20,432 nucleotides of DNA from a virus. The stretch is from IMG/VR virus record IMGVR_UViG_3300021424_000291, positions 1 to 20,432 of that record. The stretch is one strand, 5' to 3'. Below, piece after piece: positions 446-7,153 of this stretch. Below the pieces are notes generated by a model. The model was not told the DNA's origin and did no database searches. It saw nothing but the letters and a program-made list of their open reading frames with translations. Position 1 is the stretch's first letter. Each line of letters begins with the position of its first letter. A program made the position numbers and the translations under genes.

Positions 446-1015
446 TTAAACAAACATATGATCTAAAGTAGATCGATTTTCGATTGATGAATCTAGGATT
501 ACTACTTCGTGTATTAAATCATCAATATGCATTGCCAATACAAGTTTTAAATAGTTATTATTTGTTATTTTTGGAAATGCATTAGAGACTACAATGTATT
601 CATAGTCTTTGATTCCTTGAATTTGCATACTCAGTTTTAAGATTCTTCCTCTTATGATAGCACCATCAATAGCAGTATCTTTGTTTAATCCGATTTTACT
701 ATCTTGCTTACCATAACATTTGCTTTGTCTAGATTTAGACTCTATGAATATTTGTTTTCCGTTTTTTAAAACAACTTTAAAGTCAAAGACATATTTTGAA
801 TTAAATTGTTTAAATGTTCTGATCACTTCTTCAGCATTTTTGATATATATTCTCGCCATATCTTCACTAGGAATCTGTATTTCATGATGCTGCTCTAAAC
901 TCAATATTTGATTTGAATAGTGTTTTCGTATCCATTTTTTAGTTTGAATTTCAAATTCTACACCTGATGTTTCGACACTAGTTTTTTTCGATTTTTTATT
1001 TTTTCTATTTTTCAT
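446..1015 (-). CDS. Putative PD-(D/E)XK nuclease with clamp-binding-like C-terminus
   Basis: A 189-aa protein with a very basic start (MKNRKNKKSKK). Residues 74-96 show a PD-(D/E)XK-like core: D78 in YVFDFK, a short hairpin, then E92-x-K94 in IFIESKSR. This is the arrangement of many restriction-type nucleases, though the assignment is by motif only. The last residues, RSTLDHMFV, are a variant of the STLDDMFG tail on the dioxygenase and GT-B glycosyltransferase of the same operon and resemble a sliding-clamp-binding peptide. The ATG overlaps the gp44 stop (ATGA) and the stop is one base before gp62, so it is an insertion between two genes adjacent in T4. It looks more AT-rich than gp44, consistent with acquisition. 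A role in host DNA degradation, repair or exclusion is inference. Confidence 0.6.
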   Translation of the reverse strand: MKNRKNKKSKKTSVETSGVEFEIQTKKWIRKHYSNQILSLEQHHEIQIPSEDMARIYIKNAEEVIRTFKQFNSKYVFDFKVVLKNGKQIFIESKSRQSKCYGKQDSKIGLNKDTAIDGAIIRGRILKLSMQIQGIKDYEYIVVSNAFPKITNNNYLKLVLAMHIDDLIHEVVILDSSIENRSTLDHMFV

Positions 1016-4529: not shown

Positions 4530-5858
4530 TCAACCAAACATGTCATCTAGGGTACTAGTCACATTCAGTTTATCAGAAAATTTAAAGTGATTGCACCACA
4601 CAGAATCTACTACATCATTTAACTCGGCATTAAATTTTCCTGTTTGCGTTTCAAGCAATCCAGTTGCAAGAGCAATATATTCCGACGCAATGTTTTTACG
4701 ATCAAACTTTTTAACAAATTCCCAGTTATTGGCAACAATCTTACTATAATCAAAAGGTTGCATTGACAAGAATTTATTACAAAGATCTCCGAACTGTTTC
4801 GGCGTAGCATCCCAGGGAATCATCAAATAATTTTTGCCTGGCTTGAGTAGACCTTCGCCTTTCTCATTATCAGAAACGCCAAGATTACGAGCAATCGGAA
4901 CAACACCCATAAGCATTGCATCAATTACAACACGATTGAAGTGTTCGCCATAAGTTCTTGACCATGAAGGATCAAGCAAGAATTTACTGTGGCTTAGAAT
5001 TTCATCACGCTTTTGCTCAGAAACGAAACCGATATATTGCATGCCTTTGCTAAGAGCATTCTGCCAAATAGGTTTACCAACACGATCAGGTGTGGCTTGA
5101 GGATCTCTCTCCAATGTACAGTAATATTCTGGCTTACACTTATCTTTTGATGCCATGTAAGCACGTTCAATACCATCACCAGCAACAATTACTTGACCAT
5201 GAATGTAGGGAACTGCTGCTACGAGATCATCAACACGCTTCCATCGCTTGAATGTTTGTAGCGAGAAGATTGTATCAGTCTTTTCATCGAATGATGTTAA
5301 TCGCTTTTTGGATATATCCTGCGGATTTAGAATCAAAGCACGAGGAATCTCCATAGATCCTGCTTGTTTGAGTGCGCTTGGATGAACGCATGCCAAACCT
5401 GCGATATGTTTCCGAAGATGATGTATCCAAGGATAATTCTTTTTTAGATTACCATCATGTACAATTATGACATGTTTGGCTTTTACATCGGTGAACATTC
5501 TCAACCATGATTGCTTACCTTCTGAATCTTGGCACTTGAAACCAAAGATAGATTGCCAGATAACAATATCATAATCATTCGCAATTTTTACAAATTTATT
5601 TACATCATCATCATTGATAAACGAAAGATATTCTCCGCGCCACCCTTTACCTTGATGAACTGGGATACCTGTTCCTGCACCAATATCATATCCTTCTTTA
5701 TCATAATCTTCAGAGAACTTTCCACCAGATTTTGTGCTCCGAAGAAATATAAATCCAGTTTGATGACCGAGATCTTTGAAACCAGCAATTAATTGCTCTG
5801 CGTGTGATATGATACCGCCGAAGTTATTAAAGTCATGTACAACTGTCAATATTTTCAT
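4530..5858 (-). CDS. GT-B fold glycosyltransferase with clamp-binding-like tail
   Basis: A 442-aa GT4-type retaining glycosyltransferase with two Rossmann-like halves. Signs are the N-terminal ILTVVHDFNNFGGIISHAEQL, which contains the glycine loop. The C-terminal domain has VIVAGDGIE near 225 and SRTYGEHFNRVVIDAMLMG near 302-320, where E307 and D315 stand in the sugar-nucleotide Glu-x7-Glu position. The start is the ATG at 5858, two bases after the dioxygenase stop; a frame beginning six bases earlier would use TTG. The last eight residues, STLDDMFG, are identical to those of the dioxygenase upstream and resemble a sliding-clamp-binding peptide. The probable role is transfer of sugar to a hydroxylated base in DNA; this substrate is inferred from context. 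Confidence 0.8.
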   Translation of the reverse strand: MKILTVVHDFNNFGGIISHAEQLIAGFKDLGHQTGFIFLRSTKSGGKFSEDYDKEGYDIGAGTGIPVHQGKGWRGEYLSFINDDDVNKFVKIANDYDIVIWQSIFGFKCQDSEGKQSWLRMFTDVKAKHVIIVHDGNLKKNYPWIHHLRKHIAGLACVHPSALKQAGSMEIPRALILNPQDISKKRLTSFDEKTDTIFSLQTFKRWKRVDDLVAAVPYIHGQVIVAGDGIERAYMASKDKCKPEYYCTLERDPQATPDRVGKPIWQNALSKGMQYIGFVSEQKRDEILSHSKFLLDPSWSRTYGEHFNRVVIDAMLMGVVPIARNLGVSDNEKGEGLLKPGKNYLMIPWDATPKQFGDLCNKFLSMQPFDYSKIVANNWEFVKKFDRKNIASEYIALATGLLETQTGKFNAELNDVVDSVWCNHFKFSDKLNVTSTLDDMFG

Positions 5859-5860
5859 AA

Positions 5861-7153
5861 TCAACCAAACATATCATCTAGAGTTGAAACTTTATTATAC
5901 GCTTCTGAATGGTATTTGGCAACCATTTCTTCTCCACCATTTTTTTCCAAGTAGTCATACCACTCTTGTTCTTCCCACATTCCTGGACTGATTCCATTCC
6001 AGAGTCTTCGTTGGAGTGGATGGTCTTTGTTTTTTCTACGGCACTCAACATAATTAAATCGATGATCTTCATACTCTTTGCTCCCAAGTTCAAGCATCTT
6101 TTCACGCAAATAACAAACAAGACTTATGCGTTCTGCGCTTTCATCTTCAAGAACAATAGGTGTGTTACCATGAATATACTCATGATTATTGACTAGTAAT
6201 AGATCACCAGGACGCACATTGATAGCAATACGAACCTCAGGTAGAATTAGATATCCGCCAGAATAGTTGCCGTTGTTTGAAAGAACTAGAAGATTACTCA
6301 ATCCATTTGTGAAATCGCCAGCATCACGATGCGCTGCTGTTCTAAATGTCTTGTTGACAGTAATCGTCGTAAAGACAGTTTCCGGAACCAAGAATGACGG
6401 ATCAATTTTATCTGCTGCTTCACGTTGAGCAGCATGACGCTGAGGGAGTAACTCTGCGAACCCACGATCTAGAGATTGAAGAAACGGAAAAGCCAATTTA
6501 AATTTATCATATGATTGCTGTGTATAAGAAGTAGCACGCCCATAAGGAATGCGAGGATACCGATCAAACCAGCCAGCAATTCCAGAAAATACAGGATTCG
6601 CATATGTTGTATCCGAAATGTAATCCCCTAAAATATCTTTTGCTTCTTGTTTTCTTTCAGCAACCTTTAATCCAATAGCACTCTTTAACCAATTATCAAA
6701 ATTAAAATTTTCTTCTTTAACTTTTGCTGCAAGCCAAACAAGTCCACGTGTAGATTCAACGTTTTTGTATTGTTGTTGTATTCTAGCAACTTCTTCTTTT
6801 ATATCAAGGGGAACTGCAGTATTTTCTGGTTCTACTTTGAAAAATTCCAATAAACGAAGTTGAGTTTCTGTTACCCAATCACGACCAGCGCATTTGTCAC
6901 CCTTTGGTCCTGCTGCAAGCCCACGATTTTGCGATTGAGTTGCTGCTTCGCGCAGCCCAAGATAAGCCTGTTGTTGTTCTTTTTTAGAAAAGAAGTTTTT
7001 TCTAAACTTGAATGCTATGTTATTCTCATCTTCTGATTCAAGATAACAATCTGTATCTTCATTGATAATTGTATCATAATGCGACTCATCAATGAATTGA
7101 CCAAGAAGATGTTCGCAATCTAACTTAGACTTTGCAATAATTACTTTGACCAT
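5861..7153 (-). CDS. TET/JBP-family DNA base dioxygenase with clamp-binding-like tail
   Basis: A 430-aa 2-oxoglutarate/Fe(II) dioxygenase. The catalytic core is at about 260-352: VNKTFRTAAHRDAGDF gives H275 and D277, then GNYSGGYLILP and VRPGDLLLVNNHEYIHGN with H328, and ERISLVCYLR with R342 as the likely 2-oxoglutarate-binding Arg. The HRDAGD form and the IHGNTP context fit the TET/JBP family, which hydroxylates 5-methylcytosine (TET) or thymine (JBP) in DNA. Residues 1-240 are unassigned. It is the first gene after a perfect consensus promoter and has a strong AAGGAG site. The C-terminus STLDDMFG is shared with the next gene. With two glycosyltransferases following, I infer base hydroxylation then glycosylation. 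No cytosine methyltransferase is in the window, so thymine or externally made 5mC are both possible. Confidence 0.8.
   Translation of the reverse strand: MVKVIIAKSKLDCEHLLGQFIDESHYDTIINEDTDCYLESEDENNIAFKFRKNFFSKKEQQQAYLGLREAATQSQNRGLAAGPKGDKCAGRDWVTETQLRLLEFFKVEPENTAVPLDIKEEVARIQQQYKNVESTRGLVWLAAKVKEENFNFDNWLKSAIGLKVAERKQEAKDILGDYISDTTYANPVFSGIAGWFDRYPRIPYGRATSYTQQSYDKFKLAFPFLQSLDRGFAELLPQRHAAQREAADKIDPSFLVPETVFTTITVNKTFRTAAHRDAGDFTNGLSNLLVLSNNGNYSGGYLILPEVRIAINVRPGDLLLVNNHEYIHGNTPIVLEDESAERISLVCYLREKMLELGSKEYEDHRFNYVECRRKNKDHPLQRRLWNGISPGMWEEQEWYDYLEKNGGEEMVAKYHSEAYNKVSTLDDMFG

Follow-up and report, generated by a model that had tools for sequence, protein, structure and literature searches.

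The window analysed here, a 20,432-bp IMG/VR piece of a T4-type phage, carries the genes for the two clamp-loader subunits parted by an open reading frame for a protein of 189 amino acids, a putative PD-(D/E)XK endonuclease (positions 446–1015, minus strand). The order along the minus strand is gp44, the large subunit (1012–1947; phrog_168, E = 2.2e-127), the insert, and gp62, the small subunit (64–444; phrog_225, E = 2.3e-37, and PF16790). The same strand encodes the sliding clamp gp45 (2289–2975; phrog_223, E = 2.1e-58), a glycosyltransferase (GT, 4530–5864) and a TET/JBP-type dioxygenase (TET, 5861–7153; PF12851, E = 7.5e-23). In T4, gp44 and gp62 are direct neighbours, as the first-pass annotation of this DNA had stated, and the insert lies exactly at their junction. 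Coupled overlaps had been described on both sides; this holds for gp44, whose stop codon shares 4 nt with the start codon of the insert (ATGA, 1012–1015), but not for gp62, where the TAA of the insert and the conserved ATG are separated by base 445 (TAA-T-ATG, 442–448). With a single spacer base, re-initiation at gp62 is plausible even though the frames do not overlap.

The insert has a GC content of 27%, compared with 42% for gp44, and is present in identical form and at the identical place in four further IMG/VR contigs, i.e., the frame is intact in five contigs. Searches of viral contigs and genome contigs for divergent orthologues returned identical copies or nothing, a sequence search of the PDB yielded designed or unrelated proteins only, and no significant match was obtained in the family libraries; judged by these searches, the window nuclease is an orphan. 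Matches among Serratia and Klebsiella phages by tblastn (E 0.05–0.6) were dismissed as spurious: their alignment loses Asp78 and the Glu92/Lys94 pair of the predicted active site.

The gp44–gp62 junction is a nuclease slot with turnover in the cyanophage-like relatives of T4. From close relatives, 74 distinct loci were recovered by scans with gp44 and gp62, 36 of them with an empty junction and 38 with a filled one. In the empty alleles gp44 and gp62 are joined directly (AAGTTC|AATGGCTGA) with overlapping stop and start codons, and it is at that exact stop-start point that the filled alleles carry an additional gene; both insertion edges in the window are defined by comparison with these empty alleles. 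With a third scan included, the inserts fell into about 20 kinds unrelated to one another, among them PD-(D/E)XK, HNH, NUMOD and Endo VII types, the counts and family assignments being based on ORFs called mechanically in contigs from metagenomes. Many residents were identified as nucleases by profile searches (PHROG homing endonuclease with E = 7e-51, HNH_3 with NUMOD4, NUMOD3, Endonuclease_7 and PDDEXK_5), some are PD-(D/E)XK-like by motif alone, and at least one, the DUF3820-like insert of L069, may be something other than a nuclease. On a quick maximum-likelihood tree of gp44 and gp62 DNA, in which two rows out of register distort one branch and hardly affect the count, the state of the junction must have changed a minimum of 26 times, including 17 switches from empty to filled or back. 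The nearest relative of the window, L026, carries a different nuclease in the slot. No pair of inserts that is both recent and placed on distant backbones was found among the loci compared. A NUMOD3-motif gene occupies the slot in reverse orientation in L050, L123 and L126, so that transcription together with the clamp-loader genes is no requirement for a resident.

The same gap is used in cultured cyanophages. Homologues of two inserts, the NUMOD4-HNH protein of L042 and the PD-(D/E)XK protein of L241, were examined in DSL-LC03, S-B64, S-H25, S-SSM4, S-8S29 and Sf-FR1, and in all six they lie between gp44 and gp62. In marine cyanophages, other genes were also found there, i.e., a dam-like methylase, glutaredoxin and endonuclease V, and hence there are lineages in which the gap is open to more than nucleases. 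Several records contain further material at this place. In S-B64 (L254, MH107246.1, about 69530–70860) two HNH-like frames in the gap are unannotated, and DSL-LC03 has a second 'putative endonuclease' (L253:865–1494) with a PD-(D/E)XK-like stretch, SDFIISKDGKKYERVQVKS, in the gap that it shares with a tailed HNH homing endonuclease. In phage DLP6 (L086:17518–17988) gp44 and gp62 are parted by a 77-aa protein and an unannotated stretch. The open-access literature, to which our search was mostly confined, yielded no report of a gp44–gp62 slot or of clamp-tailed homing nucleases.

A restriction-like nuclease had been proposed from the residues Asp78, Glu92 and Lys94, which do occupy these positions in the protein (codons 782–784 for Asp78 and 734–742 for Glu92-Ser93-Lys94, minus strand). 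The spacing of the motif by itself is no evidence, since a loose D-x13-E-x-K pattern occurs in 76% of shuffled versions of the insert and, among 62 phage proteins of about its length, in 40; it was discarded as an argument. The sole hint from the family libraries was the YraN profile, which covers residues 78–116 and thereby all three positions (E = 0.081). AF2 prediction from the single sequence gave a pLDDT of 31; with a four-row alignment of the insert and three remote insert proteins, a mixture of remote families picked for the same motif that could bias the model, the mean pLDDT was 68 and the pTM 0.70, with block averages of confidence up to 95 around the strands that carry Asp78 and Glu92. 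In this model, the predicted metal-binding Asp78 (strand 74–83) and the predicted ExK motif (strand 88–94) lie on adjacent strands, as in a catalytic D...(D/E)-x-K arrangement, and an alpha-beta-beta-beta-alpha-beta core is recognizable from AF2 and Foldseek with moderate confidence. Foldseek searches of the PDB returned EndoMS/NucS, Card1, BstEII, PfoI, Mus81/Hef, EcoO109I and SgrAI near the top, nearly all of them PD-(D/E)XK enzymes; as the E-values are weak (best 3.6e-3), the evidence for the fold is the class of the matches and no single match.

Comparison with a second insert family of the same site, PDK_H, one aligned member of which comes from the cultured phage Sf-FR1, points in the same direction. 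In three MAFFT modes Gly18, Phe21, Glu22, Asp78, Glu92 and Lys94 fall in register with residues that are invariant in four diverged PDK_H members; Glu22 (codon 950–952, minus strand), in a GxxFExQ motif of the first helix, is invariant also when PDK_G is aligned. The profile score between insert and PDK_H hardly exceeds what chance gives (237 of 5000 shuffles), and homology is therefore suggested rather than proven; when the insert sequence alone was compared with PDK_H and PDK_G by hhalign, no match was obtained. Taken with the model, the Foldseek ranking and the weak YraN match, the alignment supports the first-pass assignment, and the insert protein likely has a PD-(D/E)XK fold and active site.

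The C-terminus of the insert, RSTLDHMFV, is of the type found on clamp ligands. Its last eight residues (182–189, STLDHMFV; 449–472, minus strand) are modelled with low confidence and stand away from the core. DNA polymerases (gp43) of relatives end in SLEDFFS, SLDCFFE or SLDCFFS, and TET and GT proteins in STLDDMFG or STLEDLFG, the former being the end of both in the window; the codons of the three window tails (insert, GT and TET) differ at several positions. Of the 212 genes predicted for a 173-kb relative, gp43 and TET alone encode the strict form of the tail. A scoring matrix was built from gp43, TET, GT and gp55 tails, with TET and GT assumed to be clamp ligands and no insert included. 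Against 74 T4 proteins this matrix placed gp43 first (11.9) and gp55 third (5.1), both of which are proven clamp ligands in T4 (ref. PMC2988020). The window insert scores 13.8, and a score of 13 or more was reached by none of 210 natural C-termini (gp43 and TET aside) and none of 40,000 internal 12-mers. The tail ends on the insert's own TAA and is thus free of the forced ends that gp62 imposes on other residents (see below). As judged from sequence, it resembles the DNA-polymerase clamp tail of the lineage (SLEDFFS) far beyond chance, which bears out the clamp-type tail noted earlier, and STLDHMFV probably binds gp45, the presumed partner, as the polymerase tail does. Clamp-like ends were also seen on two further TET/JBP-type dioxygenases, i.e., GDFFV in DLP6 and SLEEFFV in C48C1, and on a 112-aa protein without assigned function that some relatives encode immediately upstream of gp44 (L031:1852–2191 and L057:5037–5376; STLENLFEV and STLEHLFGT).

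Tails of this kind recur among other residents of the slot, i.e., L043 (NNLEQFYG), L051 (NNLETLFS), L042 (NTLEHLIY), L226 (EHLERFFV), L241 (TVFDNFYG) and L227 (NLLEFFHG). Three of the six cultured homologues, none of which was used for the matrix, also bear one (DSL-LC03, NLLETFFV; S-H25, NPLEKLLS; S-SSM4, SPLEDLLK), and the neighbouring methylase genes of the gap in cultured phages do not. Several residents, including the NUMOD3-HNH ones, are without a clamp-like tail. Most metagenomic inserts terminate on the ATGGCTGA of gp62, by which their last residues are partly forced to [NYHD]G; against such a YG-forced background the family-level enrichment has p of about 0.01, compared with 1e-6 to 1e-4 in a naive test, and a general enrichment of tails among inserts is thus likely rather than proven. 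Motifs of clamp-like appearance at the N-terminus of residents without a C-terminal tail (L028, DTVDQFFE; L026, ENLDEFID; L062, QTISQFFD; L244, DNLCAFFG) were set aside, their enrichment being mild and spotted post hoc.

The first-pass annotation had placed the nuclease beside a DNA-modifying system, and our co-occurrence data do not lend support to this link. Of the six contigs that bear an insert and extend far enough upstream, four show neither TET nor GT there, TET is present in L048 and G001 where the junction is empty, and the 15 contigs with enough flank, a small sample, show no association between insert and TET/GT. Since the inserts do not track these genes, membership of the insert in a TET/GT modification system was rejected. 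Removal of competitor DNA, proposed in the same context, fares better as homing-type exclusion, the slot behaving like a homing-endonuclease site (refs. PMC2993671, PMC11620839), but not in its modification-linked form. In the DLP6, Cr30 and S-CBWM1 records (L086, L162, L164) the TET/JBP-type dioxygenase is labelled 'SNF2 DNA repair protein', probably in error.

Several known systems share single features with the insert. I-Ssp6803I, the type member of the PD-(D/E)XK homing endonucleases, is intron-encoded. PD-(D/E)XK enzymes are one of the known homing endonuclease families (ref. PMC6083498), and the predicted fold of the insert is alike, but the present gene stands free in a phage genome and its product has a clamp-type tail. 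Free-standing homing endonucleases of cyanophages are represented by F-CphI and Endo VII-type (DHHRN) enzymes (ref. PMC6083498); Endo VII-type inserts fill the gp44–gp62 slot in relatives, but their fold differs from that of the present protein. The T4 Seg and Mob enzymes of intronless homing are encoded by free-standing genes between conserved phage genes with a patchy distribution among close relatives, and such nucleases are linked to marker exclusion (refs. PMC2988022, PMC2993671). In contrast to the insert they are GIY-YIG or HNH enzymes, SegA, SegF, MobB and MobC showed no clamp-type tail with our matrix, and homing by the present gene is inferred. On the side of the clamp, T4 gp43, gp55 and gp33 carry a short hydrophobic-acidic C-terminal peptide that is interchangeable among the three (ref. 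PMC2988020); the C-terminal STLDHMFV of the insert is a peptide of this type, but none of the three proteins is a free-standing endonuclease of such a kind. A precedent for an accessory DNA enzyme on the clamp is T4 α-glucosyltransferase, which binds gp45 (ref. PMC13216743), but has a C-terminus without the insert-type tail and modifies DNA, whereas the insert protein is predicted to cut it.

We consider that the insert encodes a free-standing PD-(D/E)XK homing (marker-exclusion) nuclease of the gp44/gp62 slot that is tethered to gp45, with a probability of roughly 55%. In a mixed infection, the nuclease would cut genomes without the insert in the clamp-loader region, and recombination repair would then copy the insert into the cut genomes or remove the allele of the competitor, while the tail on gp45 would bring the nuclease to DNA that is being replicated; that the protein cuts, homes and binds the clamp, and what the tether is for, are all part of this proposal rather than observations. 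The homing reading is drawn from a nuclease that is patchily distributed and exchanged for others at one conserved junction, which is the signature of such enzymes (refs. PMC2988022, PMC2993671), and the 74 loci display a single site that is empty in some close relatives and filled in others. In its favour we count, besides the predicted fold, the register with PDK_H and the tail, the changes of state, the different nuclease in L026, the resident with a PHROG homing endonuclease match, the placement of all six cultured homologues and the low GC content of the insert; against it we count the weak Foldseek E-values, the near-chance PDK_H score, the motif-chosen AF2 rows and the tailless residents.

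The rapid turnover of unrelated nucleases would also fit conflict genes, and the insert might cut the DNA of rival phages, satellites or the host without spreading itself, possibly in a way that depends on how the bases of the target are modified. A homing enzyme can itself yield interference competition (ref. PMC11620839), as does ΦPA3 gp210, a homing nuclease that serves competition between phages (ref. PMC11620839). The single exact insertion point, the homing-type families among the residents and the lack of association with TET/GT speak against a nuclease that does not home, and we regard it as unlikely. More doubtful is a replication-linked repair nuclease that would cleave at mismatches or damage once the fork has passed, modelled on EndoMS/NucS, the top Foldseek match and a PD-(D/E)XK nuclease driven by a C-terminal clamp peptide that activates it (ref. 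PMC8228993). EndoMS/NucS, a mismatch enzyme found in archaea and actinobacteria, has two domains and no sequence relation to the patchy phage insert; its N-terminal dimerisation domain and C-terminal nuclease domain have only a 189-aa single-domain model as counterpart, and the match is confined to the part with the nuclease fold (about 104–145 columns, TM about 0.28). Furthermore, one would expect a gene for repair to be retained, but most close relatives lack this one, their junction being empty or filled by nucleases unrelated to it.

That the insert is incidental cargo at an insertion-tolerant junction, its nuclease activity lost or never present and its tail due to chance or a relic, we hold to be the least probable explanation. 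Non-nuclease genes do occur between gp44 and gp62 in marine cyanophages, and the gene is an orphan; yet the inserts of this lineage are mostly nuclease-like, the frame has been kept in five contigs, the tail would arise by chance in fewer than 1 in 40,000 random 12-mers, and clamp-type tails recur in cultured-phage inserts outside the matrix set.

Compared with free-standing homing and marker-exclusion nucleases in general, it is the clamp tail that is the unusual part of the tethered homing nuclease proposed here. Homing endonucleases are usually thought to locate their long target sites unaided. A broader proposal, which we offer tentatively and at somewhat less than even odds, is that unrelated nucleases of the junction (PD-(D/E)XK, NUMOD4-HNH and perhaps others) have repeatedly gained clamp tails, and that the clamp delivers them to the replicating genomes of competitors; the delivering clamp would be the very one that is loaded by the products of the flanking genes. 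The slot is in addition a source of small PD-(D/E)XK and HNH nucleases that are missed by database profiles. If unrelated nucleases at one locus do carry the clamp peptide of the polymerase, homing would be physically tied to the replisome, and a single junction, with alleles that are empty or hold a nuclease with or without a tail, would form a natural series on how tethering relates to the speed of homing or the exclusion of competitors. Swappable, tag-ended DNA cutters at this junction suggest selfish enzymes that ride on the replication machinery.
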